Shown: one piece after another, positions 2,761-28,560 of the stretch
How positions within the stretch are numbered: the stretch's first letter is position 1
Layout: each line of letters begins with the position of its first letter
Virus record (IMG/VR): IMGVR_UViG_3300042449_002271
Span: 1 to 34,146 of that record
Reading direction: 5' to 3' (one strand)
Source of the DNA: a virus
DNA length: 34,146 bases
The notes under the pieces: model-generated
Told to the model about the DNA's origin: nothing
Seen by the model: only the letters and a program-made list of their open reading frames with translations
Databases searched by the model: none
Translations under genes and position numbers: made by a program

Positions 2761-5700
2761 ATGGGAAATGTAACTAAATCACAAGCAAATAATATAAGAA
2801 CGCCAGACGGTAACAGTCTAGCTGTTTTTGTTGACGGAGTAAGCGGAATAATAAAGGTAAAAGATATAATGGGTAACATTCAACCGTTATCTGATTATAT
2901 AAGTGGTGGTGGCGGAGGAGGATGTAGCCCTTTTCAATACGATGCTAACGCAACGGGTATAGAGCCAATACTAGGCACTAATAATGCTTCGGGTTGTTTT
3001 GCTACTATTGGAGGAGGTGGCACTAATAATGCTTCTGGATGTTTTTCTGCAATTGTTGGAGGTAGTAACAATACTGCTACTGCAAATTGCTCAACAGTTG
3101 GTGGGGGGTCTCTCAATACAGCTACTGGAACCTGCTCTACTGTTAGCGGAGGTCGATGTAATAGTGCTTTAAATGCTAGTGCAACAGCTGGAGGAGGTTT
3201 TAGAAATATCGCTTGTGGTCAAGGGTCAATAATTGGAGGTGGTGTTTGTAATACTGCTTTTGGATTTTGCTCAACAATAGGAGGTGGGGAATCTAATACT
3301 GCTAATGGATATTGCTCAACAATAGGTGGTGGTATTTGTAATGTTACTAACGGATATGGTTCAACTGTGGCTGGGGGTAGTTTTAATAAGGCTTTTAGTC
3401 AAGACGTAACAGTTGGAGGGGGGCAATCTAATATTGCTTGCGCTAGTAAATCAACAATTGCGGGAGGTTATACCAATACTATTTGCCTTGGAGCTGATAA
3501 TTCAGCAATAGGCGGAGGTTCAACTAATATTGTTTCTGCAACTGCTTCTTCTTCGACAATTGGTGGTGGTTGTGGTAATACTGCTTCTAATGTTTGGTCA
3601 ACACTAGGTGGTGGTTATAGTAATACTGCTTCTAACATTAAATCAACAGTTGGTGGGGGTGGAAATAATACTGCTTCTGGTTATAGTTCAACAGTTGTTG
3701 GAGGTTGTCAAAATACAGCTTCTGGCTGTAATTCAGCTGTTGCAGGTGGACAATATAACCTTTCTTCTGGTATTAAATCAACAGTTGGTGGAGGTAGCAA
3801 TAATACTGCTTCTGCAAATTGCTCAATAGTTGCAGGTGGTTGTACTAATACTGCTTCTGGATGTTGGTCAGGAATAGTTGGAGGTCGTAGAAACACTTCT
3901 TGTGGAAATTATTCGATTGTTTCAGGTGGTTATTGCAACACAGCTAACGGAGTACTCTCTTTTATAGGTAGTGGAAAATGTAACAGAATATTCCCTTCTG
4001 CAAATCTTGGCGGTAGTGCAAGATATGGAGATGTAATAGCAGGGGGTTGTAAAAATACCATTAATACTAATACTTATGCTACTACTTACTCGCCTGTTGG
4101 AGGAAGTACAATTTCTGGAGGGGTTTGTAATGTCATAACGCCTTACCAAGGAAGTGTGACAATTAGTGGCGGTACTAATAATATAGCGCAATGTGATTTA
4201 ACAACAGTTGGAGGTGGTGTGCAGAATACTGCTTCTGGATGTTATTCTGTAATTGGTGGCGGTTCTGGCAATACTACATCTCAAAAAGGTTCAGTCATTT
4301 CTGGAGGTCAAGGTAATACTGCATCAAATTATTTTGCATCTTCACTTGGAGGTAAGTCAAATATTGTTAGTGGTACATACTCTTCAATTGTAGGAGGTAA
4401 GATAAATGTTAATTCAGGCTATCAGTCGTCAATTTTAGGAGGAACTTACAATGTTATGTGCGGTACTCAATCAGTAATAGGTGGTGGTTTTTGCAACATT
4501 AATTCAGGTACAACCTCAACAATTGGTGGTGGTAATACTAACAATGCTTCTAATACAGACACAACAATTGGCGGAGGTTCAAATAATACTGCTTCTGCTT
4601 GCCGTTCAACAATTGGCGGAGGTGCTTTTAATACTGCTTCTGCAACTGTTTCAACCGTAGGAGCTGGTTGTTGCAACATAACAAATTCAAGGTTTTCATT
4701 TATTGGAGGAGGACAAAGAAATATAATTCAATCGCCAACAAACGAATGTTGTTCTCTTGGAGTTACAATAGGCGGTGGTATTGGTCATAATACAAATGGC
4801 GGAACTTTTAACGCTACTACTGGGATTTTAAGTGGCGCAATTACTTGTTGTAATGCTGGTAAATTATCTACAATTGGAGGTGGTTTTAGAAATAAAGCTA
4901 TTGGTTCTTGTTCAACAGTTGGAGGAGGCTTAAGCAATGTTGCTTCTACTGACTCAACCATTGGAGGTGGTTTTTGTAACAATGCTTCTAATAGTAGTTC
5001 AACAATTGGAGGAGGTGGTACTAACACTGCATCGGGAGTTTCTTCAACAGTTGGTGGTGGTGGTCAATGCTACAATAATGGGGGTTTTTATGGCACTGGA
5101 AATATTGCTTCTGGTACGTCATCAACAGTTAGTGGTGGTCAGGGAAATACTGCATCGGGAATTGCTTCAAAAGTTGGTGGGGGTTGTTATAATACTGCTT
5201 CTGGATGTTATTCTGTAATCGGGGGTGGTTGTTTAAATACTGCTTCTGTTTCTCTATCAACGGTTGGAGGAGGCTCAAGCAATATTGCTTGTAGTACAGC
5301 AACAGTTGGGGGTGGTTTTAGTAATACTGCGTGTGGCGATGTTTCAACAATTAGTGGGGGTTGTTATAACAATGCTTCTGCTTCTTATTCAACAATTGGT
5401 GGAGGTCGGCAAAATACTGCTTGTGGAAATGCTTCGTCAATTGGAGGGGGTTGTTATAATACTGCTTCTGCTTGCCGTTCAACAATTGGTGGAGGTGCTT
5501 TTAATACTGCTTCTGCAACTGTTTCAACCGTAGGAGCTGGTTGTTGCAACATAACAAATTCAAGGTTTTCATTTATTGGAGGAGGACAAAGAAATATAAT
5601 TCAATCGCCAACAAACGAATGTTGTTCTCTTGGAGTTACAATAGGCGGTGGTGTTGGTCATAATACTACTGGAGGAACTTTTAATGCCTCTACGGGAGAT

Positions 5701-6462
5701 TTAACTGGCGCAATTACTTGTTGTAATGCTGGTAAATTATCTACAATTGCAGGTGGTTTTAGAAATAAAGCTACTGGTTGTTTGTCAACAGTTGGAGGTG
5801 GTGCATCTAATACTTCCTCTAATTATCACTCAACCGTTGGAGGTGGTTTTAGTAACAATGCTTCTAATAATAGTTCAACAATTGGAGGAGGTGGTATTAA
5901 CACTGCATCGGGAGTTTCTTCAACAGTTGGTGGTGGTGGTCAATTCTACAGTAGTGGGGGTACTTATGGCGCTCCAAATATTGCTTCTGGTACGTCATCA
6001 ACAGTTAGTGGTGGTCAGGGAAATACTGCATCGGGAATTGCTTCAAAAGTTGGTGGTGGTTATAGTAATACTGCTTCTGGATGTTATTCTGTAATCGGGG
6101 GTGGTTGTACAAATACTGCTTCTGTTTCTCTATCAACGGTTGGAGGAGGCTCAAGCAATACTGCTTCTGGTTTAGCAACAATTGGGGGTGGTTTTGGAAA
6201 TCTTGCGTCTGGCTGTATTTCAACAATTAGTGGGGGTTGTTATAATACTGCTTCTGGAATTAGTTCTAGTATCTTAGGAGGTGAATCAAATAGCACAAAC
6301 ACTTGTGCTTGTGCAATGATTGTAGGCTCTAATATTACAGCAAACAGAGCTTGTGCTACATTTGTAAATAATCTTTCTATTACAAACATCCCAACATCAT
6401 CAGCAGGTTTACCTACTGGTTCTGTATGGAGTAATTCAGGAATTTTGACAATAGTTCCGTAA
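2761..6462 (+). CDS. Giant repeat fibre 1 (YadA-head-like beta-roll adhesin)
   Basis: The 1233-aa protein has three parts. Residues 1-48 are a unique N-domain (MGNVTKSQANNIRTPDGNSL at the start) likely to bind the virion. A Gly-rich hinge leads to about 1100 residues of 14-16-residue repeats of the form STVGGGxxNTASGxx, which resemble the YadA/trimeric-autotransporter head or related beta-roll repeats seen in phage fibres. The C-terminal cap (CACAMIVGSNIT... SSAGLPTGSVW) is shared with the other two fibres. The repeats are broken by longer inserts near nt 3956-4190, 4660-4890 and 5530-5760. Cys is very frequent at the variable positions. A section of about 700 bp is duplicated in tandem at 873-bp offset. 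Probably a trimeric receptor-binding or decoration fibre; the oligomeric state is inferred. Confidence 0.88.
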   Translation: MGNVTKSQANNIRTPDGNSLAVFVDGVSGIIKVKDIMGNIQPLSDYISGGGGGGCSPFQYDANATGIEPILGTNNASGCFATIGGGGTNNASGCFSAIVGGSNNTATANCSTVGGGSLNTATGTCSTVSGGRCNSALNASATAGGGFRNIACGQGSIIGGGVCNTAFGFCSTIGGGESNTANGYCSTIGGGICNVTNGYGSTVAGGSFNKAFSQDVTVGGGQSNIACASKSTIAGGYTNTICLGADNSAIGGGSTNIVSATASSSTIGGGCGNTASNVWSTLGGGYSNTASNIKSTVGGGGNNTASGYSSTVVGGCQNTASGCNSAVAGGQYNLSSGIKSTVGGGSNNTASANCSIVAGGCTNTASGCWSGIVGGRRNTSCGNYSIVSGGYCNTANGVLSFIGSGKCNRIFPSANLGGSARYGDVIAGGCKNTINTNTYATTYSPVGGSTISGGVCNVITPYQGSVTISGGTNNIAQCDLTTVGGGVQNTASGCYSVIGGGSGNTTSQKGSVISGGQGNTASNYFASSLGGKSNIVSGTYSSIVGGKINVNSGYQSSILGGTYNVMCGTQSVIGGGFCNINSGTTSTIGGGNTNNASNTDTTIGGGSNNTASACRSTIGGGAFNTASATVSTVGAGCCNITNSRFSFIGGGQRNIIQSPTNECCSLGVTIGGGIGHNTNGGTFNATTGILSGAITCCNAGKLSTIGGGFRNKAIGSCSTVGGGLSNVASTDSTIGGGFCNNASNSSSTIGGGGTNTASGVSSTVGGGGQCYNNGGFYGTGNIASGTSSTVSGGQGNTASGIASKVGGGCYNTASGCYSVIGGGCLNTASVSLSTVGGGSSNIACSTATVGGGFSNTACGDVSTISGGCYNNASASYSTIGGGRQNTACGNASSIGGGCYNTASACRSTIGGGAFNTASATVSTVGAGCCNITNSRFSFIGGGQRNIIQSPTNECCSLGVTIGGGVGHNTTGGTFNASTGDLTGAITCCNAGKLSTIAGGFRNKATGCLSTVGGGASNTSSNYHSTVGGGFSNNASNNSSTIGGGGINTASGVSSTVGGGGQFYSSGGTYGAPNIASGTSSTVSGGQGNTASGIASKVGGGYSNTASGCYSVIGGGCTNTASVSLSTVGGGSSNTASGLATIGGGFGNLASGCISTISGGCYNTASGISSSILGGESNSTNTCACAMIVGSNITANRACATFVNNLSITNIPTSSAGLPTGSVWSNSGILTIVP
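4588..5290 (+). repeat. Intragenic duplication in fibre 1, copy 1
   Basis: About 700 bp, starting at the codons for TASACRSTIGGG, recur at 5461 to about 6166 with an offset of 873-876 bases. The copies differ by scattered substitutions and a small indel. Both contain the insert module with ITNSRFSFIGGGQRN. Confidence 0.88.
5461..6166 (+). repeat. Intragenic duplication in fibre 1, copy 2
   Basis: Second copy of 4588-5290. Differences include GHNTNGG to GHNTTGG and CYNNGGFYGTG to FYSSGGTYGAP, so the copies are diverging while the frame is kept. Confidence 0.88.
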
Positions 6463-6747: not shown

Positions 6748-9039
6748 ATGATAAAATTACAAATAGTAGATGGTAGTTTACAAATATCAATAAATGGCTC
6801 TATAATATTAGTTGCCCCGAAAAACTCTTGTGCAATAGACGTTTTGACTCTATATGAATCAATACCTTATGTTTCTATTTACAATAAATATTTAGGAACG
6901 TCAACAAGTGTTTTTAATCAGCCTTTATCCAACTGCGAAGATTCGTTAGGAACTCCTTTTGACGTAAATAGCTTTATTGCATTTGCAGAAGCAAACTTAG
7001 GTTTCGATACTTCAGGAGGTGGAGGTGGGGGCAGTCCTTTTCAATACGATGCTAACGCAACGGGTATAGAGCCAATACTAGGCACTAATAATGCTTCGGG
7101 GTCTTACGCTACTATTGGAGGGGGTCAATGTAATATTGCTTCGGGTGATGGTGCAAAAATAGGAGGTGGTTGTTGTAATACTGCTTCAGCAGAATATTCA
7201 ACAGTTGGAGGTGGTCGTTTTATCATTTCTTCTGGAGAATATTCAACAGTTGGAGGTGGTTGTTATAATACTGCTTTAGGAAATTGTTCAACAGTTGGGG
7301 GTGGTTTTTGTAATACTGCTTCTGCACAATCTTCAACAGTTGGTGGGGGTTATCGCAATACTGCTTCTTGTTATGAATCAACAATTGGTGGTGGTTGTTG
7401 TAACACTGCCTCTGCTTGTAATTCAACAGTTAGTGGAGGTTTTTGTAATACTGCTTCTGGTCTTAAAGCAGTGATTTCTGGAGGAGATTATAATACTGCT
7501 TCTGGAGATAGGTCAACAGTTGGAGGTGGGTGTGGAAATACTGCTTCGGGATATTCATCAGTAATTGGTGGTGGTGGAAGTAACAATACCGCTTCGGGTG
7601 TTCAGTCAGTAATTGGTGGGGGTGGAAATAATATTGCTTCTGATTGTTTCGCAACAGTTGGTGGGGGTCGTCAAAATACTGCTTCGGGCGGAGAATCAAC
7701 AGTTGGAGGAGGTAATTCAAATACTGCTTCTGGAATTTTATCAACAATTGGTGGAGGCATACGAAACACTGCTTCTTATTATTATTCAACAGTTGGAGGT
7801 GGATTATGCAACAATGCTTCTTGTATCGTTTCAACAATTGGAGGTGGTAAATATAATATTTCTTCTGCACAGTATTCAACAGTTGGAGGAGGTAATTCAA
7901 ATACTGCTTCTGGAGATAGGTCAACAGTTGGAGGTGGGTGTGGAAATACTGCTTCGGGATATTCATCAGTAATTGGTGGTGGTAGATGTAACACTGCTAG
8001 TGGTGGATGTTCAATAATTGGCGGAGGTTGTTTAAATACTACTTCGGGATGCCTTGCTACTATTGGAGGCGGTCAATCTAACACTGCTAGTGGTGGATGT
8101 TCAACAATTGCAGGTGGTATTTCAAACACTGCTTGTGGTATATATTCTTTTATAGGTAGTGGTAAATCCAACCAAATATTTCCTTCTGCAAACTATTGCA
8201 GTTTTGCGCCACTGGTAAGTGATGTAATTAGCGGAGGATGTAATAACATAATTAACACTAATACTAATATTGGCACTTATTCCGCTACTGGCGGAAATAC
8301 AATTGGTGGCGGTATGAATAATACTGTAACTCCTTATAATGGATTTGTAACAATTTCAGGTGGTCAGTCAAATACTGCTTCTGGAGCTTCTTCAACAGTT
8401 GGAGGAGGGCAAGGTAATAATCTTTCTGGAAGTGCATCAGTAATTGGAGGCGGATATACTAATTGTGTTTCTGGAAGTTGTTCATTTCTTGGAGGAGGGC
8501 AAGGTAATAATCTTTCTGGAAGTTTTTCAGTAATTGGAGGGGGTTTCGTTAATGTTGCTTCTTATGGTTTTACAACAGTTGGAGGTGGTTATGCTAACAC
8601 TTCTTCTGGCGGTAAGTCAACAGTTGGTGGAGGCGGTACTAATATTGTTTCTGGCTATATTTCAACTATTGGAGGAGGGTGTGTTAATGTTGCTTCTGGA
8701 AATTGTGCTACAATTGGAGGTGGTAGATACAATACTGCTTCTGGTTATTGTTCAACCATTGGAGGTGGAGGTACTAATACTGCTTCGGGATGCAATTCAA
8801 CAGTTGGAGGTGGTTATTTTAATACTGCTAGTGGAACTTCTTCTAGTATTTTAGGAGGTCAAGCAAATTCTACAAACGCTTGTGCTTGCGCAATGATTGT
8901 AGGTTCTAATATTACAGCAGATAGAGTTTGTGCAACATTTGTAAATAACTTATCAATTAAAAATATACCAACATCATCTGCTGGATTGCCAAGTGGTTCC
9001 GTTTGGAGAAGTGGCACTTCGCTTTGCATAGTGATTTAA
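6748..9039 (+). CDS. Giant repeat fibre 2 (YadA-head-like beta-roll adhesin)
   Basis: The 763-aa protein starts with the domain found alone in the previous gene (about residues 1-88), then a Gly hinge. From the residues SPFQYDANATGIEPILGTNN onward it uses the same linker as fibre 1, followed by GGG/NTASG repeats to about residue 700. One longer insert at nt 8150-8360 (IGSGKSNQIFPSAN onward) matches an insert in fibre 1 at about 3956-4190. The C-terminal cap is shared with the other fibres. I count about 36 cysteines by hand, near 5% of residues. Likely a second receptor-binding or decorating fibre on the same virion. Confidence 0.88.
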   Translation: MIKLQIVDGSLQISINGSIILVAPKNSCAIDVLTLYESIPYVSIYNKYLGTSTSVFNQPLSNCEDSLGTPFDVNSFIAFAEANLGFDTSGGGGGGSPFQYDANATGIEPILGTNNASGSYATIGGGQCNIASGDGAKIGGGCCNTASAEYSTVGGGRFIISSGEYSTVGGGCYNTALGNCSTVGGGFCNTASAQSSTVGGGYRNTASCYESTIGGGCCNTASACNSTVSGGFCNTASGLKAVISGGDYNTASGDRSTVGGGCGNTASGYSSVIGGGGSNNTASGVQSVIGGGGNNIASDCFATVGGGRQNTASGGESTVGGGNSNTASGILSTIGGGIRNTASYYYSTVGGGLCNNASCIVSTIGGGKYNISSAQYSTVGGGNSNTASGDRSTVGGGCGNTASGYSSVIGGGRCNTASGGCSIIGGGCLNTTSGCLATIGGGQSNTASGGCSTIAGGISNTACGIYSFIGSGKSNQIFPSANYCSFAPLVSDVISGGCNNIINTNTNIGTYSATGGNTIGGGMNNTVTPYNGFVTISGGQSNTASGASSTVGGGQGNNLSGSASVIGGGYTNCVSGSCSFLGGGQGNNLSGSFSVIGGGFVNVASYGFTTVGGGYANTSSGGKSTVGGGGTNIVSGYISTIGGGCVNVASGNCATIGGGRYNTASGYCSTIGGGGTNTASGCNSTVGGGYFNTASGTSSSILGGQANSTNACACAMIVGSNITADRVCATFVNNLSIKNIPTSSAGLPSGSVWRSGTSLCIVI

Positions 9040-9050
9040 AAAAAATAATA

Positions 9051-11885
9051 ATGATAAAATTACAAATAGTAGATGGTAGTTTACAAATATCAATAAATGG
9101 TTCTATAATATTAGTTGCCCCGAAAAACTCTTGTGCAATAGACGTTTTGACTCTATATGAATCAATACCTTATGTTTCTATTTACAATAAATATTTAGGA
9201 ACGTCAACAAGTGTTTTTAATCAGCCTTTATCCAACTGCGAAGATTCGTTAGGAACTCCTTTTGATGTAAATAGCTTTATTGCATTTGCAGAAGCAAATT
9301 TAGGTTTCGATACTTCTGGAGGTGGAGGAAGTAGTCCTTTTGAATATAATGCTAACGCAACGGGTATAGAGCCAATACTAGGCACTAATAATGCTTCGGG
9401 AACTTACGCTACAATTGGGGGTGGTATAAATAATACTTCCTCTGGTTGTTGTTCAACAGTTGGAGGTGGTTTTTTAAATACTGCTTCTGGTTATTGTTCA
9501 ACCATTGGAGGTGGAGCTATTAATAATGCTTCGGGATGCAATTCAACAGTTGCAGGCGGAACTTCAAACCAAGTCATTACTAATTATTCTGCAATTGGTG
9601 GTGGTAAATATAATACTATCACTTGTAGTAGCTTTTCTGTAATTGGAGGTGGTTGTGGAAATAGCGCTCGTGGTCAATATTCTTTTATAGGTGGAGGTAT
9701 TGGAAATGTTGCAAGTGCTGGTTATGGAAGTCTTGTAAGTGGTGGTTATTTTAATACTGCATCAAATGTTGCTTCGGTTGTAAGTGGTGGTTATTGCAAC
9801 ATTGCATCTGGAAATACATCAACAGTAAGTGGAGGATATTGTAATCAAGCAACTGGTTATTTTAGTTCAATAGGTGGTGGACATACAAATACTTCAAGTG
9901 GATGCCATTCTTTTATAGGAGCTGGAGATTTTAATATTGCAAGTGCTGATAAATCTTTTATTGGTGGAGGTTATTTAAACACGGCTTCTGGTTGTATTTC
10001 AACAATTGGTGGTGGGCGTGAAAATACTGCTTCTGCAAGTTCGTCAACAGTTGGAGCTGGTTATTGCAACATAACAAATTCAAGGTTTTCATTTATTGGA
10101 GGAGGTCAAAGAAATATAATTCAATCGCCTACAAACGAATGTTGCTCTCTTGGAGTAACAATAGGAGGTGGTATTGGTCATAATACAACTGGCGGAACTT
10201 TTAACGCTACTACTGGATATTTAAGTGGTGCAATTACTTGTTGTAATGCTGGTAGATTATCTACAATAGGTGGTGGGTATAGAAATAAAGCTTCTTGCGC
10301 TTTTTCAACAGTTGGGGGGGGGTGTTTTAATACTGCTTCTGGTAGTGCTTCAAAAATTGGGGGCGGTTGTGCAAATACTGCTTGTGGCATAAGGGCTACA
10401 ATTGGTGGAGGATTTTGCAATACTGCTTGTGGACTTAGTTCAACAGTTGGAGGAGGACAATGTAATACTGCTACTGATTATGCGACAGTTGGAGGGGGTC
10501 ATTTTAATCGTGCTTGTGCTTCTTTATCAACAGTTGGAGGTGGTTGTTTAAATACTGCTTCTGGCGGTAATTCAGTTGTTGCAGGTGGACAATGCAATAC
10601 TGCTTCTGGTCAATGTTCAACAGTTGGAGGTGGTTATAGAAGTCGTGCTTCTGGTGGTTGTTCAGCAGTTGTTGGGGGATATTATAATATAGCTTCTGGA
10701 AGTTGTTCATTTGCTGGAGGTGGTAGAAATAATACGGCTTCTGGTAGCCTTTCAACAGCAGGAGGAGGTTGTTGCAACATAACAAATTCAAGATTTTCAG
10801 TTATATCTGGAGGGCAAAGAAACATAATTCAATCGCCTACAAACGAATGTTGTTCTCTTGGAGTAACAATAGGAGGTGGTATTGGTCATAATACAACTGG
10901 CGGAACTTTTAACGCTACTACTGGGGATTTAACTGGCGCAATTACTTGTTGTAACGCTGGTAGATTATCAACTATTGGGGGTGGTTTTAGAAATAGAGTT
11001 GCTGGAAATTTTTCAACCGTTGGGGGTGGTTGTTGTAATACCGTTTCAGGATATAGTTCAACAGTTGGAGGAGGTATTGTAAATACTACTTCTGGATATT
11101 TTTCAACAGTTGGAGGAGGACAAAGTAATAGTGCTTCTGGTGCTATATCAACAATTGGAGGTGGTTTTGCAAATATTGCTTCTAATTGCTATTCAACGAT
11201 TGGTGGAGGTCAAATTAATTTAGCTTCTGGTTCTTATTCAACAGTTGGAGGAGGTCGTCAGAACACTGCTTCTAATTGCTATTCAACAGTTGGAGGTGGT
11301 CAATTAAATACTGCTTGTGGCATAAGGTCAACAGTTGGAGGTGGTCGTTCCAATATTGCTTCTGAAAGTTCTTCAACAATTGCTGGAGGTATTAGTAATA
11401 CTGCTTCTGGAGGTTCATCAACAGTTGGAGGTGGAGATGCAAATACTGCTTCTGCAACTTTTTCAACAATTGGAGGAGGTCGTTGTAATACTGCTTCTGG
11501 TGCTTATTCAACAGTTGGGGGTGGTCAAAGTAATATTGCTTCTGCAACAAGGTCAACAATTAGTGGCGGTTGTAGAAATTGTTCCTCTGCTTTATATTCA
11601 ACAGTGGGAGGTGGTTTTACAAACTGTGCTTCTGGACTTAATTCAACAGTTGGAGGAGGTCTTTGTAATACCGCTTCTGGAGATAGTTCGGGTATTTTAG
11701 CTGGTATGTCAAATTCCACAAACACTTGTGCTTGTGCTATGATTGTAGGTTCTAATATTACGGCAGACAGAGCTTGTGCAACATTTGTAAATAACTTGTC
11801 AATAAAATCTATCCCAACATCATCAGCAGGTTTGCCTAGTGGTTCTGTGTGGAATAATAGTGGTGTATTAAATATTGTGACATAA
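9051..11885 (+). CDS. Giant repeat fibre 3 (YadA-head-like beta-roll adhesin)
   Basis: The 944-aa protein has an N-domain almost identical in DNA to that of fibre 2 (9051-9320 versus 6748-7015). I chose the ATG at 9051 because the match starts exactly there and a same-spaced A-rich leader precedes both; the in-frame ATG at 9003 would lie inside the fibre 2 gene. The shared Gly hinge and linker are followed by GGG/NTASG repeats, two copies of the insert module ITNSRFSxI (about nt 10060-10290 and 10770-10990), and the shared cap ending SSAGLPSGSVW. Cys is again frequent. The recent common origin with fibre 2 suggests duplication followed by exchange of the repeat region. Confidence 0.88.
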   Translation: MIKLQIVDGSLQISINGSIILVAPKNSCAIDVLTLYESIPYVSIYNKYLGTSTSVFNQPLSNCEDSLGTPFDVNSFIAFAEANLGFDTSGGGGSSPFEYNANATGIEPILGTNNASGTYATIGGGINNTSSGCCSTVGGGFLNTASGYCSTIGGGAINNASGCNSTVAGGTSNQVITNYSAIGGGKYNTITCSSFSVIGGGCGNSARGQYSFIGGGIGNVASAGYGSLVSGGYFNTASNVASVVSGGYCNIASGNTSTVSGGYCNQATGYFSSIGGGHTNTSSGCHSFIGAGDFNIASADKSFIGGGYLNTASGCISTIGGGRENTASASSSTVGAGYCNITNSRFSFIGGGQRNIIQSPTNECCSLGVTIGGGIGHNTTGGTFNATTGYLSGAITCCNAGRLSTIGGGYRNKASCAFSTVGGGCFNTASGSASKIGGGCANTACGIRATIGGGFCNTACGLSSTVGGGQCNTATDYATVGGGHFNRACASLSTVGGGCLNTASGGNSVVAGGQCNTASGQCSTVGGGYRSRASGGCSAVVGGYYNIASGSCSFAGGGRNNTASGSLSTAGGGCCNITNSRFSVISGGQRNIIQSPTNECCSLGVTIGGGIGHNTTGGTFNATTGDLTGAITCCNAGRLSTIGGGFRNRVAGNFSTVGGGCCNTVSGYSSTVGGGIVNTTSGYFSTVGGGQSNSASGAISTIGGGFANIASNCYSTIGGGQINLASGSYSTVGGGRQNTASNCYSTVGGGQLNTACGIRSTVGGGRSNIASESSSTIAGGISNTASGGSSTVGGGDANTASATFSTIGGGRCNTASGAYSTVGGGQSNIASATRSTISGGCRNCSSALYSTVGGGFTNCASGLNSTVGGGLCNTASGDSSGILAGMSNSTNTCACAMIVGSNITADRACATFVNNLSIKSIPTSSAGLPSGSVWNNSGVLNIVT

Positions 11886-11982: not shown

Positions 11983-12288
11983 ATGGAAAATTTCACAATT
12001 CACATCTTCGGTTACGGAGAAACACAAATAAATTCAAAAGATTTATCTGTAAAAACAGCAACTGCTGACTTAACTAATGTAACTCCATTAGTAGATGCTA
12101 TATGGGCTAAAAAGCCAGCAGACAGCACAATAGAGAAAAAATTTCATGCAATCAACATATTTGGATATGATGATGTGAGATGGTTGCAAAAAGACGGATT
12201 TGATGTAAAGGAAGATGCAGATTTAAAACCTTTAATCGATGCTTTGATTGCAGAACTTCAAATTGTAAAAGACAATCTTCCTGCATAA
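11983..12288 (+). CDS. Hypothetical protein with two internal repeats, heads the sulfation cassette
   Basis: The 101-aa protein contains two related halves. IHIFGYGETQ followed by LVDAIWAKKP in the first half corresponds to INIFGYDDVRWL followed by LIDALIAEL in the second, so a unit of about 50 residues has been duplicated. There is no membrane segment or Cys. It sits between the fibres and the sulfotransferase with a possible promoter upstream. I do not recognise the family. It may be a small virion decoration protein or an accessory of the modification enzymes. Confidence 0.8.
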   Translation: MENFTIHIFGYGETQINSKDLSVKTATADLTNVTPLVDAIWAKKPADSTIEKKFHAINIFGYDDVRWLQKDGFDVKEDADLKPLIDALIAELQIVKDNLPA

Positions 12289-12347: not shown

Positions 12348-13166
12348 ATGGAAAAGCGTTTTTTCTTTAATTCATCATTGCCTAGAGCTGGCTCAACACT
12401 TCTTCAGTCAATAATTGGAGACAATCCTGATTTTTATGTAACTCCTACTTCGGGGTTTTTAGAATTAATCTATGGAGCAAAGGGGAATTATAATGCTTCT
12501 CCAGAATTTAAAGCTCAAGACCCTAAACAAATGGACGATGCTTTTTTGTCTTTTTGTCGTTCGGGAATGGAGGGTTATTTCTCTAGCTTAACTAACAAGC
12601 CTTACATTTTAGATAAAAATAGAGGTTGGGGTATAAGTTATGGATTAGCGAATAAATTCTATCCAAACCCAAAAATAGTATGTATGGTTCGGGATTTACG
12701 AGCTGTATTTGCTTCTATGGAAAAAAACTTCAGAAAAAATCCAACAAAGGAAAATCACGTTCAAAATCCTAGTCAATTGGTAGGTACTACTTTGAAAAAA
12801 AGAGTAGATATATGGGCTGATGGTATGCCAGTAGGCATATCTCTAGACCGACTGAGAGATATGATTGACCAAGGAATCCACAACAATATTTTATTCATTC
12901 GATACGAGGATTTAATGGAAAATCCAGAAAACGAAATAAGACGATTTTATGAGTTTGTAGGACTTCCTTACTACGAGCATCAATTTGTAAATATAACTCA
13001 ACACACACACGAAAACGATGCTATTCATGGCATATACGGAGACCATAAGATTAGACCAAAATTTGAAAAGCTTCCAAATGATTACGAAGATATTTTAGGT
13101 TTTGAGATTTGTCAATCAATAAAAAATTCATATCCGTGGTTTTATAGATATTTTAATTATCTTTAG
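12348..13166 (+). CDS. PAPS-dependent sulfotransferase
   Basis: The 272-aa protein would transfer the sulfuryl group from PAPS to a hydroxyl or amine of an acceptor, probably in the cytoplasm as there is no signal peptide. Residues 10-18 (SLPRAGSTLL region) form the 5'-phosphosulfate-binding loop close to the N-terminus. CMVRDLRAVFAS (about 112-123) is the 3'-phosphate-binding motif. RYEDLMENPENEIRRF (about 185-200) is the usual structural segment after it. Length is normal for the family. The next gene encodes an APS kinase, which makes PAPS, and then a glycosyltransferase, so a glycan acceptor is likely. Acceptor identity cannot be read from the sequence. Confidence 0.9.
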   Translation: MEKRFFFNSSLPRAGSTLLQSIIGDNPDFYVTPTSGFLELIYGAKGNYNASPEFKAQDPKQMDDAFLSFCRSGMEGYFSSLTNKPYILDKNRGWGISYGLANKFYPNPKIVCMVRDLRAVFASMEKNFRKNPTKENHVQNPSQLVGTTLKKRVDIWADGMPVGISLDRLRDMIDQGIHNNILFIRYEDLMENPENEIRRFYEFVGLPYYEHQFVNITQHTHENDAIHGIYGDHKIRPKFEKLPNDYEDILGFEICQSIKNSYPWFYRYFNYL

Positions 13167-13199
13167 AAATAATTTCAAGAAAACTAACAACGACAAAAG

Positions 13200-13664
13200 A
13201 TGATTTACAATATTTGTGGACAACCACATTCAGGCAAAACAACCCTAGCCAATTATCTTAAAAAAGTATTAGAAGTAAACAACCCTAAAAAAAAGGTGTT
13301 CATTGTAGATGGTGATGTGTTACGAAAAATACTCAACAACAAGGATTATTCTGAAAAGGGAAGAATGGATAATATTCAACAAGCATATTCTATTGCCAAA
13401 TACCTAAATGAAACCGATAATTTTGATGTTATTTTAGCTCTAGTATCGCCTTTCAAAGACCAAAGAGACCAATTTAGATTTGTTACCGATTGTATTGAGA
13501 TATTTGTACACACAACAAACATAAGGGGGAGAGAAAATTTTCACGTTGAAAACTATGAAAAGCCTAACTTTGACTACATAGATATTGACACAACCGATGT
13601 AGATGAACTAACATCCGTAAATGAATTAATGGAAAAAATAACACAACATAACAAAAAAAAATAA
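13200..13664 (+). CDS. cysC: Adenylylsulfate (APS) kinase-like enzyme, short form
   Basis: The 154-aa protein matches APS kinase, which phosphorylates adenylylsulfate to PAPS. Visible motifs are the P-loop GQPHSGKTT (7-15), VDGDVLR (36-42), GRMDNIQQAYSIAKYL (54-69, equivalent to the family's ENIRR..EVAKL), and the LVSPFKDQR loop (81-89, equivalent to LISPYRxxR). It is shorter than the usual 180-200 residues: the lid segment that normally follows the VHTT strand is replaced by GRENFHVENYEKPNFDYIDID. The start lies 33 bases after the sulfotransferase stop. Together the two genes supply and use PAPS. APS itself would have to come from host ATP sulfurylase. A different small-molecule kinase activity is possible given the altered lid. 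Confidence 0.85.
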   Translation: MIYNICGQPHSGKTTLANYLKKVLEVNNPKKKVFIVDGDVLRKILNNKDYSEKGRMDNIQQAYSIAKYLNETDNFDVILALVSPFKDQRDQFRFVTDCIEIFVHTTNIRGRENFHVENYEKPNFDYIDIDTTDVDELTSVNELMEKITQHNKKK

Positions 13665-13665
13665 G

Positions 13666-14535
13666 ATGAACGTAATATTTCAAATTCAAGGTGGGCTTGG
13701 TAAAAGTGTAGCAGGAACAGCAGTTTTAAAAGCAATTAAGAAAAAATACTCAAAGGCAAATATAATAGTGGTTACAGAATATCCGCAAGTTTTTATAAAC
13801 AACCCAAATGCTAATAGGGTTTTGAACTCAAATCAAACGAATGGGCTATATAAAAGCTACATTGAAAAAAAAGACGTAAAAGTATTTTTTGCAGACCCTT
13901 ATCATCAAAATGATTTCATTACCGAAAATAAACACCTTATTCAAATATGGTGTGAAATGTATGGACTTGAGTACAAAGGCGAAATGCCTGAAATATTTTT
14001 ATCAAAAGGAGAAAAAGAATATTTTGCACCATTCTACAAATTAGATAAACCAATAATGGCTATCCAACCAAATGGAGGAGGCTTTGGACAGCCTTTGAAG
14101 TACAGTTGGACTAGAGATATTCCTTCTTACGTTGTAAATGAGGTTGTAAGCTATTTTAAAAATGATTATTCTATTTTACACATTAAGAGAGAAGACCAAT
14201 TGATATATGAAAATACCATTGGAGCAATGGATGACTGGAGAAGTATTGCCATAATGCTAACGATGTCCGCAAAAAGATTGCTTATTGATAGTAGCTCTAT
14301 GCACATAGCCACAGCCCTTAACCTACCTAGCGTAGTAACTTGGGTTGGAACTAATCCAAAAGTTTTTGGATATGGGATGCACACAAATATAGTTGCTAAC
14401 GATTTTACAAAAGAAATAAACATAGAGCATAATGCTTATTCTAAAAATTTATTATTCGAAGATATTTCTACATTTCCTTATAACTCATTTGAAGAAGTTT
14501 TTAATGTTGACGAAATAATAACTAATTTAAGATAA
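13666..14535 (+). CDS. GT9-like (heptosyltransferase-type) glycosyltransferase
   Basis: The 289-aa protein shows the GT-B layout of family GT9. The N-terminal half starts with FQIQGGLGKSVAGTAVLKAI (6-25), corresponding to the acceptor-side glycine loop. The C-terminal half has the donor-site signature IDSSSMHIATALNLPSVV (about 206-223) followed by TNPKVFGY. It starts one base after the APS kinase stop, indicating translational coupling. Family GT9 transfers ADP-heptose or related sugars to surface glycans; here the donor is unknown. With the sulfotransferase and APS kinase it suggests assembly of a sulfated glycan. It is somewhat shorter than typical GT9 enzymes. Confidence 0.82.
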   Translation: MNVIFQIQGGLGKSVAGTAVLKAIKKKYSKANIIVVTEYPQVFINNPNANRVLNSNQTNGLYKSYIEKKDVKVFFADPYHQNDFITENKHLIQIWCEMYGLEYKGEMPEIFLSKGEKEYFAPFYKLDKPIMAIQPNGGGFGQPLKYSWTRDIPSYVVNEVVSYFKNDYSILHIKREDQLIYENTIGAMDDWRSIAIMLTMSAKRLLIDSSSMHIATALNLPSVVTWVGTNPKVFGYGMHTNIVANDFTKEINIEHNAYSKNLLFEDISTFPYNSFEEVFNVDEIITNLR

Positions 14536-14604: not shown

Positions 14605-15153
14605 ATGGAAAAATTAACAGAATCCGAACAAAAAATAGCAGAGTTCATATACTATTACCCAGATGTTGTGGTTAAAATTCTAAATGACCATGGATATAAC
14701 ATCGACATGGATACTGCGACACTTCATAAAATAAACGAATTAACTTACAAAGCGCTTATTATTGATAATAATGTTGAATTTGCATTATCTTTTGATAATG
14801 CAATGGCTAACGATGGATACTTAAATATAGCGCCATTGGTAATAGCTGGTGTTTTTTCATTAGCGACTAGTTTGTTAGGCGGTTCTATGGCATCAAAGGA
14901 AGCTGAAAGAAACAGACAACTTCAAAAAAATATTGCATTAGCTGGTTTTGCTCAAAATGAGTTATTATCCATGGAGAAGATTAGGTCTGAATCCGAAACG
15001 GCAAGAACAAGAATATTAGTCAATAGTTTAGAATCATACCGTACAACTCTTCAAAAAGAAGGAACCGCTAGAATAAATGATACTTGGCTTTATGTAACTG
15101 GTTTGGGTATAGGCATTGGAATTATTTATGGAATTTATTTATTAGCTGATTAA
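14605..15153 (+). CDS. Small protein with two hydrophobic segments, virion-like
   Basis: The 182-aa protein has a soluble acidic N-domain (1-70), a hydrophobic Gly/Ala segment (about 73-95, NIAPLVIAGVFSLATSLLGG), a charged helix with repeated Arg/Glu (96-160), and a C-terminal membrane segment (about 162-180, LYVTGLGIGIGIIYGIYLL). The next gene has the same order of elements. It begins a series of four virion-like genes. Function unknown; a virion or envelope membrane protein is inferred. Confidence 0.8.
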   Translation: MEKLTESEQKIAEFIYYYPDVVVKILNDHGYNIDMDTATLHKINELTYKALIIDNNVEFALSFDNAMANDGYLNIAPLVIAGVFSLATSLLGGSMASKEAERNRQLQKNIALAGFAQNELLSMEKIRSESETARTRILVNSLESYRTTLQKEGTARINDTWLYVTGLGIGIGIIYGIYLLAD

Positions 15154-15154
15154 T

Positions 15155-15538
15155 ATGGGAACGATACCAACAGGAGGCGCAAGTACGGCAGGAGGATTAA
15201 GTACTGGTGCGCAATTAGGAGGCGCTTTTATAAGCGCAGGAATACAAGCTATTGTTGGAGGAGCTTTTGCAAAGGCTGATGCTAAAAAGCAAAGAGCAAT
15301 GGAAGCCGAGTTAGGTAGATTGTCTTTGTCTCAACAGAAAGATTTAGAAGAAAGATTGCAAAATATTCAAGGAGAGTTAGCGAAGCAAGAAATAATTTAT
15401 AAATATTTAGCAGTTCAGAATAATGACGAAATGCTATCTAAACAACAAGGTAGAAGATACCTTTCCTATTCTATTTTAGGAGGTGGAATATTGGCATTGG
15501 CTGTAGTAGTATTACTTATAAAAAATAAAAAAAAGTAA
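15155..15538 (+). CDS. Small membrane protein, same architecture as its neighbour
   Basis: The 127-aa protein begins with a Gly/Thr/Ser-rich stretch and a weakly hydrophobic segment (about 18-38, GGAFISAGIQAIVGGAFA). A charged coiled-coil helix (40-100) and a strong C-terminal membrane segment ending in LIKNKKK (103-127) follow. It starts one base after the preceding stop. The parallel organisation with 14605-15153 suggests distant paralogs. A role in a membrane-associated virion or in membrane remodelling is possible. Confidence 0.8.
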   Translation: MGTIPTGGASTAGGLSTGAQLGGAFISAGIQAIVGGAFAKADAKKQRAMEAELGRLSLSQQKDLEERLQNIQGELAKQEIIYKYLAVQNNDEMLSKQQGRRYLSYSILGGGILALAVVVLLIKNKKK

Positions 15539-15541
15539 AAA

Positions 15542-15946
15542 ATGGATAACGAGACAAAAACTCTATTTTTATCAATAGCAGTAGCATTAGGATTGTTATG
15601 GTTGCTAAAGCCAAAAGGAACAAATATAATAGGAAAAGAAAAACATAAGGATGCTGACAGAAACGACAGTAATAACAGTAATAACAGTAATAACAGTAAT
15701 AAAAGTAATGATAAGTATGCAGAGCCTAAAATCGCATCTGAATCAACTAAAAAGGAAAAGGACAATGCAGTAATTGCATTACAAGCTATGAGAGAAGCTA
15801 TTAAAAATAAAGAGCCAAAAAGAGAACTTGATAAACTTAATGCTATGATTTCACAAGACTATGGAGTTAAAGTTTTATTAAATAAAAAAACACTTAAATT
15901 AAGAGCTATGTCTAAACAAGGCAAAGTTCTAGCAGAAGAAAATTAA
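15542..15946 (+). CDS. N-terminally anchored protein with Asn/Ser repeat linker
   Basis: The 134-aa protein has a membrane segment at residues 8-22 (LFLSIAVALGLLWLL), then a linker with a DSNNSNNSNNSNKSN stretch, then a basic helical C-domain (about 65-134) containing MREAIKNKEPKRELDKLNAM. The linker comes from a 9-base tandem repeat (15667-15702) that could change length by slippage without breaking the frame. It lies 3 bases after the preceding gene. Function unknown. Confidence 0.8.
   Translation: MDNETKTLFLSIAVALGLLWLLKPKGTNIIGKEKHKDADRNDSNNSNNSNNSNKSNDKYAEPKIASESTKKEKDNAVIALQAMREAIKNKEPKRELDKLNAMISQDYGVKVLLNKKTLKLRAMSKQGKVLAEEN
15667..15702 (+). repeat. 9-bp tandem repeat, four copies
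   Basis: CAGTAATAA is repeated four times in frame inside the gene 15542-15946 and encodes SNN units. Copy number changes would lengthen or shorten the linker by three residues. Confidence 0.93.
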
Positions 15947-16434: not shown

Positions 16435-17628
16435 ATGTCAACTCAAATAAGTTTAAGTGTTACAAATAATACTTCCCTTGCTCAGCCTGTTAACATTATG
16501 GGAACACTAGTTCCTCAAGGGTTTTCCAACGATTCTAATAAATTATACGAATACAATTTGGCTACAGAATCTTTTTCAAGCCTTACATCAATATCTATAC
16601 TTATCGCAACGAGTCCAAACCCTACATTTATTGCTTACAATGCAATAGTAAAATCCAATGATGTTGCTGGTGTGGTAAGCGCTTTAAATAGTTTAAATAA
16701 AGGCGTTTTTCTAAACAATGGAACTACGGTTTATGTTTCTGGTAACGATTATTATAGTTATGGTAGTTTAGTAATTAACTCGTCAATTTCAACTTCTACA
16801 ATTTTAGGAACTACTGGAAATAACCCTTCGGGAATAACAATTGACCCATTAGGAAATATTTATACAGCAAATGGAATAAGTAACAATGTAACTAAAATTA
16901 CACCTCTTGGGGTATCTACAATTTTAGGAACGACTGGCGCACAGCCCGTTGGAATAACAATAGATAGCTCAGGAAATATTTATACGAGTAATGGTTCTGA
17001 TAATGTGAGTAAAATAACACCTTTGGGAGTATCAACTATACTAGGGGTATCAGCAGGCTCTCCTACGGGAATAACTATTGATTCTTTAGGAAATATTTAT
17101 ACATCAAATGGAGGGAGTAACAGAGTAATTAAAATTACGCCACTAGGAGTATCTACAACCTTAGCAATCCTAACTGGTCAAGCCCCAGTTGCAATAACAA
17201 TTGATTCATCTGGAAATATATATACTGCAAACTACTTTACTAATATAGTAAGCAAAATAACACCACTTGGAGTAGCTACAACATTAGGAACGACTGGCAT
17301 AACCCCAGTTGCAATAACAATTGATTCGTCTGGAAATATATATACTGCAAATCAATCGAGTGATAATGTAAGCAAAATTACGCCACTTGGGGTATCTACA
17401 ATATTAGGAACTACTGGCTCTGCTCCAAGCGGAATAACTATTGATTCTTTAGGAAATATTTATACTGCAAATCAAGGGAGTAATAATGTAAGCAAAATCA
17501 CACCGCTTGGGGTATCTACAATTTTAAATGTAACTGGTTCGCAACCACAAGGAATAACTATTGACGTATATGGTAATATTTATACTTCAAATCAAGGGAG
17601 TGATAATGTAAGCAAAATAACTCCATAA
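16435..17628 (+). CDS. Beta-propeller (NHL/Vgb-like) repeat protein
   Basis: The 397-aa protein has an N-domain of about 118 residues and then seven repeats of about 40 residues. Each carries GITIDxxGNIYTxNxxSxNVSKITPLGVSTILG with small changes. The pattern matches NHL/virginiamycin-B-lyase-type propeller blades, but the catalytic residues of the lyase cannot be placed, so an enzyme role should not be assumed. The repeats are also close at the DNA level (near 120-base period from about 16799), so they arose recently. It ends just before a strong terminator. A virion-attached binding propeller is a reasonable guess. Confidence 0.82.
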   Translation: MSTQISLSVTNNTSLAQPVNIMGTLVPQGFSNDSNKLYEYNLATESFSSLTSISILIATSPNPTFIAYNAIVKSNDVAGVVSALNSLNKGVFLNNGTTVYVSGNDYYSYGSLVINSSISTSTILGTTGNNPSGITIDPLGNIYTANGISNNVTKITPLGVSTILGTTGAQPVGITIDSSGNIYTSNGSDNVSKITPLGVSTILGVSAGSPTGITIDSLGNIYTSNGGSNRVIKITPLGVSTTLAILTGQAPVAITIDSSGNIYTANYFTNIVSKITPLGVATTLGTTGITPVAITIDSSGNIYTANQSSDNVSKITPLGVSTILGTTGSAPSGITIDSLGNIYTANQGSNNVSKITPLGVSTILNVTGSQPQGITIDVYGNIYTSNQGSDNVSKITP

Positions 17629-25666: not shown

Positions 25667-26296
25667 TTAAAATAACGTTAGTGGTTTTGTTTTTGGTTTA
25701 GCATTTTTTAATCTTCCGTTTATTATTGGAATGTAATCATCTTCACGCTCTATTAATATATAATCTCTGTTGGTGTTTTTACAAGCAACTCCAGTACTAC
25801 CGCTACCCGCAAATGGGTCAAGAATAACAGCCCCTTCTCTACTAACTAGCTTTACTAAATATTCCATAAGAGCAATCGGCTTTACTGTTGGATGGTTGTT
25901 TTTATTTGGATTTCTATTTTCTGGATTTCTGCCATTATTCAATAATCCTTCTTCGCTATGAAAACCACCATAATTAACTCTTTCTTTATCTAGCAAACCA
26001 TCACAACCCGCATTACGTTCTGACTTGCTCGCTTTGGCACAATAAAAAAATCGACTTGCATTTCCTTCGCTTGAATCGTGAATTTGCTTTGTACTTCCTG
26101 AAGGTGCGCCTAAACTATTACCGTTATTTTGATATTTATAGGCTTTTTTCATTGCACCACTTTTCGTATTGGGAAACATCGATACTACTTCTTCTGAACC
26201 GTAATTAGGAAGTTTATTAAATAATCCTTGTAAATCAATCGGCATTTTATTATATAATGTTTGTTCAATTGTTATCATTGTATTTTCTATTTTCAA
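25667..26296 (-). CDS. C-terminal half of a split beta-class DNA methyltransferase
   Basis: The 209-aa protein carries SRFFYCAKASKSERN (about 81-95), HPTVKP (135-140) and the AdoMet-binding motif LDPFAGSGSTGVA (159-171). These are the C-terminal parts of an N6-adenine or N4-cytosine methyltransferase. The catalytic DPPY motif is in the preceding gene. The listed start is TTG; an ATG at 26278 (residue 7) is an alternative. The two frames differ and 17 bases lie between the stop of one and the start of the other. Either the gene is broken by a frameshift or the halves work as two chains. Confidence 0.82.
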   Translation of the reverse strand: MKIENTMITIEQTLYNKMPIDLQGLFNKLPNYGSEEVVSMFPNTKSGAMKKAYKYQNNGNSLGAPSGSTKQIHDSSEGNASRFFYCAKASKSERNAGCDGLLDKERVNYGGFHSEEGLLNNGRNPENRNPNKNNHPTVKPIALMEYLVKLVSREGAVILDPFAGSGSTGVACKNTNRDYILIEREDDYIPIINGRLKNAKPKTKPLTLF

Positions 26297-26313
26297 GTTT
26301 ATAATGGCATTTT

Positions 26314-27192
26314 CTAGGTGTTCTCATTTAGCCATTTATATAATTTATATATCTGTTCTTTAGTTAAATTATCTTTGCAGGTGTATTCATTTTCGGGATA
26401 AGATAAAATTAAATTTGCAGGGAAACGACCTATAGGATTTGATGGGGTTGCCTTGTCTTCTGCAAATGCTGAATATATCTTATCAGGACTATCAGAATAG
26501 TTAGTTGTTGGATTTTTAGATGCTTTATTATCCATAATTTCCTTATCTTCTTGAGAGCTTTCAACTCGACTACCATCAATATCAATTCCTCCAGTTCCCC
26601 ATTTCAAGACATTTAAAGCAACTGTTTTTTCGGATAAAGGCTTTCTTGCCATAGTTATTGGCTCTAATGCTGGTTTTAAAGCTGTACCCCAACCTTCCCA
26701 TTCAGAGTTTCCTTTGGTTAATTTTTCTACTCCATATCCAAATTGTTTTTCATTATTTCTATTTGCTTCATCTGCTAAATAACCACTACCATTTAGTTTC
26801 GCTTTCTGAACATCGCCACGTTTTATTTCCCCAACAACTTCCCTTTCATTTCCTTGCAAGGCATCAACAGCTTTTCCAATATTCAAACTTTTAGGGAAGC
26901 CCGAACCGTAAACCCAAGCTATCATATCCCTAATTTCAAATCCCGCATCTTCTATTCTTACAGCCATACGATGTTGCGTTCTAGTTCCTGCAAAAGCTAA
27001 TAAGTAACCTCCATGCTTTAAAACTCTCAAACACTCTTTCCATATCTCTTCACTAGGAACGTCATAATCCCATTTCTTACCCATAAATGATAGTCCATAA
27101 GGAGGGTCTGTTACAATTGCATCTACTGAATTATCTTCGAGCTTTTTAAGCTCTTCTAAACAATCCCCGTGCATGATTTTTTCTAACTTCAT
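26314..27192 (-). CDS. N-terminal half of a split beta-class DNA methyltransferase
   Basis: The 292-aa protein starts with KIMHGDCLEELKKL, the catalytic VTDPPYGLSFMG (27-38, DPPY at 29-32), a target-recognition region with LKPALEPITMARKPLSEKT, and GRFPANLILSYP near the end. It stops with a TAG after NENT. The AdoMet-binding FAGSGS motif is missing here and is found in the next gene. Motif order (DPPY first, FxGxG last) defines the beta class. The gene's ATG overlaps the stop of the upstream winged-helix-like gene (ATGA). Such enzymes protect viral DNA from restriction. Confidence 0.85.
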   Translation of the reverse strand: MKLEKIMHGDCLEELKKLEDNSVDAIVTDPPYGLSFMGKKWDYDVPSEEIWKECLRVLKHGGYLLAFAGTRTQHRMAVRIEDAGFEIRDMIAWVYGSGFPKSLNIGKAVDALQGNEREVVGEIKRGDVQKAKLNGSGYLADEANRNNEKQFGYGVEKLTKGNSEWEGWGTALKPALEPITMARKPLSEKTVALNVLKWGTGGIDIDGSRVESSQEDKEIMDNKASKNPTTNYSDSPDKIYSAFAEDKATPSNPIGRFPANLILSYPENEYTCKDNLTKEQIYKLYKWLNENT

Positions 27193-28180: not shown

Positions 28181-28204
28181 AGTTTTTTGTTGTTAATTGG
28201 TTTG

Positions 28205-28560
28205 TGGAGGCGGGGAGATTCGAACTCCCGTCCAAACAACTTTGGTTATTACAATTTATACAGCTTTTTTTGATACGATTTTAAAGTTGTAGTATCATTC
28301 AACTAGGGTCTACTGTTAAAAGTAAACAAACCACCACCTGATTTAATCTAATCAGGAAATCCTTTTAATGTTTAGGCTACTAATTGTAGTTCTTCAACAT
28401 TAGGGTTAATCAATGAAAAAACTTTGCTCATGTTAGCGTTAACTTGGTCAACATCTAACGAAATTACTTTGTTGTCATTTATTAAATTCACCTTAGTTTA
28501 CAGTTATCTCTCTGGCTGATTGTAATAATTAGTGGTTGTCTGTCAAATCCAGTCGCCCCC
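28205..28560 (-). ncRNA. ssrA: Virus-encoded tmRNA (ssrA)
   Basis: The 356-nt RNA has a 7-bp acceptor stem: GGGGGCG at 28560-28554 pairs with CGCCUCC at 28212-28206, including a G3-U wobble that marks alanine charging. The discriminator is A (28205). The T-arm (GGGAG, loop UUCGAAU, CUCCC) is at 28229-28213, and a D-analog region CUGGAUUUGACAG lies near the 5' end. Helix 2 pairs CAGACAAC with GUUGUUUG and then UUAUUACAAU with AUUGUAAUAA. CCA is not encoded. The tag frame ends ...NPNVEELQLVA then UAA at 28374-28372. It is open from RNA position 64, so the tag may reach about 35 residues; the resume codon is not certain. A 7-bp hairpin follows the tag (28337-28356). Ribosome rescue would need host SmpB. 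Confidence 0.93.

Follow-up and report, generated by a model that had tools for sequence, protein, structure and literature searches.

APS kinase genes (cysC) have been described in environmental phages. The main text of one study lists 62 freshwater-phage cysC genes, whose transcription exceeded that of non-phage cysC in some aerobic conditions (PMC10914622), and the main text of another reports deep-sea phage cysC (PMC9529941). Both assign phage cysC to assimilatory sulfate reduction, and the word "sulfotransferase" does not occur in either main text. Compared by description, the locus studied here likewise holds a phage-encoded APS-kinase gene from an environmental phage. Unlike the phage cysC genes described in those main texts, the kinase of the present viruses is linked to a sulfotransferase, a glycosyltransferase-like gene and fibre genes, usually together with a compact nucleotidyltransferase of about 134 aa, which we call NT.

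Sulfotransferases are also encoded by the cyanophages S-SKS1, S-SRM01 and S-SCSM1. They are 29-30% identical to the sulfotransferase analysed here, and the three phage records contain no relative of our kinase at E <= 0.001. PAPS synthases (Sat-APS kinase, animal PAPSS fusions, CysN-CysC) perform the same conversion of ATP and sulfate to APS and then PAPS, often in one fused protein. In Bacteroides, CysDNC-sulfotransferase clusters sulfate steroids, and the PAPS supply genes adjoin the sulfotransferase there too. The Bacteroides clusters differ from the phage cassette in that they are cellular, CysDN-based and directed at a small molecule.

No described phage system of this kind was known to the original prediction. 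We did not find the cassette linkage in the literature searched; the parts are on record as cyanophage sulfotransferases and, from the main texts cited, as phage cysC (PMC10914622, PMC9529941). Neither a phage sulfation cassette nor an NT-type ATP sulfurylase appeared in the titles and abstract openings of the open-access literature searched, a body that leaves preprints and most subscription journals outside.

The cassette and its neighbours in the window

The window, i.e., the whole stretch of DNA analysed, is a 34,146-base linear virus record. We consider it probable that it represents a tailed phage whose fibre region bears a cassette for PAPS-dependent sulfation. The relevant features are as follows.

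2761..6462, + strand: fibre-like repetitive protein, 1233 aa
6748..9039, + strand: fibre-like repetitive protein, 763 aa; weak, sub-threshold matches to the LbR_Ice_bind and UspA1 repeats
9003..11885, + strand: fibre-like protein with IGGGxxNxASGxxSTVGGG repeats, 960 aa by TTG start
11983..12288, + strand: 101-aa gene that separates the last fibre from the sulfotransferase; conserved in L002-L006
12348..13166, + strand: sulfotransferase (PF13469/PF00685), 272 aa; motifs SLPRAGSTLL (5'-PSB-like) and RDLRAVFASM (3'-PB-like)
13200..13664, + strand: short APS kinase (PF01583), 154 aa; P-loop GQPHSGKT, DGDVLR and RGRENFHVENYEKP
13665..13665, + strand: 1-base junction, where L005 and L006 have c2N - NT - DUF2061
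13666..14535, + strand: glycosyltransferase-like protein (GT9-like, below Pfam cut-off), 289 aa; kept in 19/37 viral loci
14605..15946, + strand: three small genes with hydrophobic stretches, order conserved in L005 and L006

The three cassette genes lie on one strand with gaps of 33 and 1 bases, as predicted, and their predicted placement is also borne out: three long repetitive fibre-like ORFs stand upstream and small ORFs with hydrophobic stretches follow downstream. The viral loci L005 and L006 are 62-72% identical to the window over the three cassette proteins.

The sulfotransferase, first recognised by its motifs, was confirmed by matches over cut-off to two families (PF13469, E 9.2e-19, 69 bits, cut-off 27; PF00685, E 6.2e-15, 55.7 bits, cut-off 22). 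Its two motifs, which resemble the PAPS sites named 5'-PSB and 3'-PB, are kept in relatives as PRxGSTL and R..S, with P12, R13, G15, T17, L18, R115 and S123 invariant in 17 rows. A profile of 17 viral sulfotransferases matched solved sulfotransferases, and the best match was a tyrosylprotein sulfotransferase (2.7e-13).

The predicted APS kinase was likewise supported by profile search (PF01583, E 4.3e-15, 56.5 bits, cut-off 21.1). Each of its 12 PDB matches at E <= 0.01 was an APS kinase or contained an APS kinase domain, and a profile of 24 viral and bacterial kinases matched solved APS kinases at 4.4e-20. The P-loop GxxxxGKT and the DGDxxR motif are kept in relatives (G12, K13, T14, D37, G38, D39 and R42 invariant in 24 rows, G7 in at least 90%). 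The stretch RGRENFHVENYEKP is common to the viral relatives and lies beyond the region that matches solved APS kinases. The kinase scored below the NCBIfam TIGR00455 apsK equivalog cut-off (51.5 vs 138.7 bits), with a match that ends at residue 105, so APS is given here as its predicted substrate.

The third gene had been assigned to GT9. This label is not secured because its PF01075 score (16.2 bits, E 0.0065) lies under the cut-off of 22; among its relatives, 3/14 matched PF01075 at E <= 0.01, and a PDB search with the gene gave no match. After the Pfam, NCBIfam and PDB searches, we replaced the label by "glycosyltransferase-like".

PHROG searches of the window added little information. The 101-aa gene matched no Pfam family and no PHROG better than E 0.12. 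One of the three small downstream genes weakly matches a holin PHROG (E 0.021), and these genes are candidates for virion, lysis or target proteins. They are followed by an NHL / virginiamycin-B-lyase-like beta-propeller repeat protein (16435-17628, +), a possible receptor-binding or virion protein.

Other genes of the window include RecT, an exonuclease-like gene, a DNA methylase and a tmRNA. The tmRNA gene was found at 28202-28560 (-) by Rfam (RF00023, 82.6 bits), and ARAGORN concurs. The N6/N4 DNA methylase match is divided between two adjacent ORFs at 25667-27192 (-), which cover profile positions 1-89 and 111-220; it is a split or interrupted gene. Over a 12 kb stretch, the proteins compared between the window and a 101 kb contig match at 100%. 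Because this contig encodes a terminase-like gene (9.8e-6) as well as tail fibre and spike genes, the virus is most likely a tailed phage.

Linkage of the cassette in viral relatives

We scanned IMG/VR with the kinase alone and obtained 37 viral loci, of which three belong to the window's own virus; the 37 include near-copies and represent 25 distinct kinases. In 21/37 loci the kinase has a sulfotransferase no more than 5 kb away, and all three genes are present in 19/37. A fibre-like ORF, defined as at least 250 aa with more than 38% G+S+T+N, occurs within 5 kb in every one of the 21 sulfotransferase-bearing loci, upstream and on the same strand in 19. The two exceptions, L023 and L036, have less than 1.4 kb of sequence upstream of the kinase. 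Among the 16 loci without a sulfotransferase, several of them short, one has a fibre-like ORF. The trio is thus conserved near fibres, as the original prediction expected of related viruses, and we rejected chance linkage on the 19/37 loci with the full trio and the 21/21 with a fibre-like ORF. Gene order varies by viral group (sulfotransferase-kinase-third gene, or third gene-sulfotransferase-kinase), which argues that the linkage has outlived rearrangement.

The 16 loci whose kinase lacks a sulfotransferase at this distance comprise a large-phage group of 12 (L007-L016, L019, L020) together with L017, L018, L033 and L038; the contigs of L033 and L038 end just upstream of the kinase. Searches of whole contigs found a sulfotransferase somewhere in 18/19. 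Five large-phage contigs were searched in this way, and the sulfotransferase was about 46 kb from the kinase in four, with none in L019. In this large-phage group (L009, L010, L011, L019, L020, these five being 98-309 kb, and relatives), the kinase and NT lie near a DNA methylase, and no fibre-like ORF was found within 5 kb of them.

The nucleotidyltransferase partner of the kinase

NT follows the kinase in 34/37 viral loci, and the three exceptions are those of the window's own virus. It was not found in the window or in three further contigs of its virus (45, 101 and 24 kb); all four are linear records and possibly fragments. The original reading of the locus is supported in pairing a PAPS-making kinase with a PAPS-using sulfotransferase, and it missed NT, the usual partner of the kinase, which is absent from the window.

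Near the kinase, 22/37 viral loci encode a DUF2061 membrane protein, and L082 and L104 carry fusions of DUF2061 with APS kinase. These arrangements point to a role in PAPS supply for this domain of unknown function. Examples of DUF2061 near or fused to APS kinase are L005:7152-7376, L021:6823-7269, L082:5312-6010 and L104:3686-4384, and DUF2061 also occurs as a 148-aa fusion with an unknown N-terminal domain.

Kinase-NT fusions of about 245 aa are present in three isolated phages, Clavibacter phage 33 (L039), Stenotrophomonas phage Bhz60 (L040) and phage DLP_6 (L041), where they are annotated as "kinase" or hypothetical. No annotated sulfotransferase was found in the 12 kb inspected. In Bhz60 and Clavibacter phage 33 the fusion lies near cysteine dioxygenase and MazG-like genes, and in Bhz60 it adjoins a NADAR gene. 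The kinase half of the Bhz60 fusion matches AAA_33 better than PF01583. The fused proteins of these three phages could have a different substrate.

Both NT proteins scanned fall over the cut-off of the nucleotidyltransferase superfamily PF01467. One of the two, the NT of L021, also gave a sub-threshold match to the ATP sulfurylase Sat (PF01747; 14.9 bits, cut-off 24.3). The nearest named relatives of NT are NadM-type NMN adenylyltransferases, far below their cut-offs; the NT of L006 reached 23.6 bits with the archaeal NMNAT family TIGR01527 (equivalog cut-off 181.2). On NMNATs, the NT profile covers only the half that binds ATP and the S.T..R motif at the C-terminus. Residues G26, R27, Q29, H32, H35, R54, N62, P63, R101, G104 and R125 were invariant in 69 rows, and R27, H35 and R125 fall in the motifs GRxQPxHxGH and ISxTxxR. 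These three likely occupy the places of R11, H19 and R136 mutated in archaeal NMNAT, an equivalence drawn from the profile alignment, with the mutated residues taken from structure-match titles.

An NT model built on 16 viral rows was of low confidence (pLDDT 68), and a model from 67 rows reached pLDDT 90 and pTM 0.80. The 67-row model fits NMNAT and PPAT structures in VIA-align (Z up to 9.8, rmsd 3.0, 110 aligned residues for 1f9a), where Z 9-10 is a middling range by the tool's own grading. Foldseek gave no match at E <= 0.001 with either model, so the fold assignment draws on the VIA-align scores and the sequence. ATP sulfurylases appeared from rank 17 on in the Foldseek results for the 67-row model, none significant, and were absent among the best 50 VIA-align rows. 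The NadM/NMNAT and CoaD/PPAT adenylyltransferases share with NT the fold and the HxGH and ISxTxxR motifs. Unlike them, NT (L006) stays under their cut-offs, is shorter and has a conserved segment of its own, PDI.S...GR.VGY.

We also found NT in 76 cellular loci, nearly all bacterial. L062 is archaeal, and L119, labelled archaeal, is doubtful: its protein, kept in the 76, is 26% identical over part of its length and is probably a true NMNAT. APS kinase is fused to NT in 30/76 loci (14 kinase-first, 16 NT-first), lies within 1.5 kb on the same strand in 37/76 and is absent in 9/76. The 28 cellular fusions listed measure 245-328 aa, except that of L107 (422 aa), and are of NMNAT/PPAT type, unlike Sat or CysDN by the tests run. 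In three Nitrospirota (L066, L069, L072), the NT locus lacks an APS kinase, while elsewhere the genome encodes a long Sat (open frame of 587-593 aa); their NT may do something else. Nine viral rows in the NT tree are placed among Bacteroidota and marine bacteria and need three label changes. Phages may therefore have gained NT more than once, although three changes also correspond to one gain and two losses, and many forks of the tree are unresolved.

Known ATP sulfurylases were then counted in the 76 NT genomes. Sat is present in 9, CysD (E <= 0.001) in 13, both in 2 and neither in 56. The titles of most of these records name metagenome bins or single-cell assemblies, of unstated completeness, so some of these absences may be gaps. 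A replacement test was made on 147 genomes of one order, for which at least 85% completeness was requested. Strong APS kinases (E <= 1e-20) occur in 65/147; of these genomes, 58 have CysD, 7 have NT and none has both, and Sat was found in 0/147. The exclusion has a Fisher p of 1.4e-9, a value that overstates independence because the seven NT genomes are related. In each of the seven, NT stands beside the strong kinase, and the NT partner kinases include the six highest PF01583 scores of the sampled order (up to 242 bits). The either-or pattern is not universal, since G226 (L094), from outside the sample, has NT and full CysD.

Sulfotransferases are frequent in NT genomes. One was over cut-off in 32/45 NT genomes, compared with 2/14 well-known controls that were not matched for lifestyle; the other 13/45 had no Sulfotransfer_3 over cut-off. 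An iterated profile detected a sulfotransferase-like ORF in 14/76 NT loci, and all eight candidates scanned were Pfam sulfotransferases over cut-off. A sulfotransferase stands directly upstream of the NT-kinase fusion in L102 and of the DUF2061-kinase gene in L082. Of the 227 bacterial neighbours listed, 105 were scanned together with 4 chosen by hand; these 109 proteins included four Sulfotransfer_3 members, that of L102 having been knowingly included, and three inositol-monophosphatase-family proteins, a weaker sulfotransferase signal than the whole-genome count.

The part of PMC3779200 that deals with ATP sulfurylases divides them into CysDN and one common Sat fold. By the tests run, NT is neither. 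Its fusion to the kinase, its replacement of CysD and its fold together make a compact, so far unrecognised ATP sulfurylase the most likely identity of NT.

Proposed mechanism, alternatives and meaning

In the proposed mechanism, sulfate and ATP would be converted to APS by NT in most relatives, with the DUF2061 membrane protein as a possible helper, and the window's virus, in which no NT was found, would take APS from the host's enzyme. The phage kinase would then form PAPS from APS and ATP and raise the PAPS supply during infection. The glycosyltransferase-like protein would make or extend a sugar acceptor, and the sulfotransferase would move sulfate from PAPS to that sugar, or to a protein hydroxyl or tyrosine. 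The position of the cassette next to the fibres suggests a virion or cell-surface target, perhaps the fibre, a glycan or the host surface; the Thr-rich linkers of the membrane proteins, which the original prediction named beside the fibres and the host surface, may also serve. Sulfation of the fibres or of the infected cell's surface might alter binding, release, superinfection or defence.

Within such a scheme the sulfotransferase could be of the protein-tyrosine type and act directly on fibre or membrane proteins, the third gene serving another purpose. Protein sulfation is possible because tyrosylprotein sulfotransferases are the nearest solved relatives of the viral profile; solved structures, however, probably cover the family thinly, so this ranking says little, and the glycosyltransferase-like gene is kept in 19/21 sulfotransferase-bearing loci. 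We regard the tyrosine-type reading as rather unlikely. The kinase might instead be an auxiliary metabolic gene that feeds PAPS reductase (CysH) and yields more cysteine in the infected cell, which is the pathway that the main texts of PMC10914622 and PMC9529941 assign to phage cysC. The presence of a sulfotransferase within 5 kb in more than half of the loci, and somewhere in nearly all contigs searched, speaks against assimilation, which is in our view improbable here.

It could also be argued that the kinase and NT form a NadR-like NAD salvage pair (riboside kinase and NMN adenylyltransferase) outside any sulfate pathway, given that NadM-type enzymes are the nearest named relatives of NT and that the Bhz60 fusion adjoins a NADAR gene. 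Yet the TIGR01527 score is far too low and the alignment to NMNATs only partial, NT occurs where CysD is missing, its partner kinases hold the six top PF01583 scores in one order, and sulfotransferases are plentiful in NT genomes. On the TIGR01527 score, the partial alignment and the CysD replacement we rejected NAD salvage as the main reading and consider it very improbable. The linkage of the cassette points to the phage cysC of these viruses serving sulfation rather than sulfur assimilation.

Taken with the sulfation reading, NT would likely constitute a third ATP sulfurylase class: a compact enzyme of NMNAT/PPAT type, about 115 residues, unrelated by family to Sat or CysDN, distributed across many bacterial phyla, phages and at least one archaeal bin, and frequently joined to APS kinase in a miniature PAPS synthase. 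With a sulfotransferase beside tailed-phage fibres, it would form a largely self-contained sulfation system. If this is true, NT fills a gap in genomes that have APS kinase and sulfotransferases and lack a known ATP sulfurylase, and the NT-kinase fusion is a very small PAPS synthase, useful for producing sulfated compounds. Surveys of metagenomes in which phage cysC is counted towards sulfur assimilation may then need to be re-read, and phages would make activated sulfate to decorate their own or host components, beyond steering sulfur assimilation.
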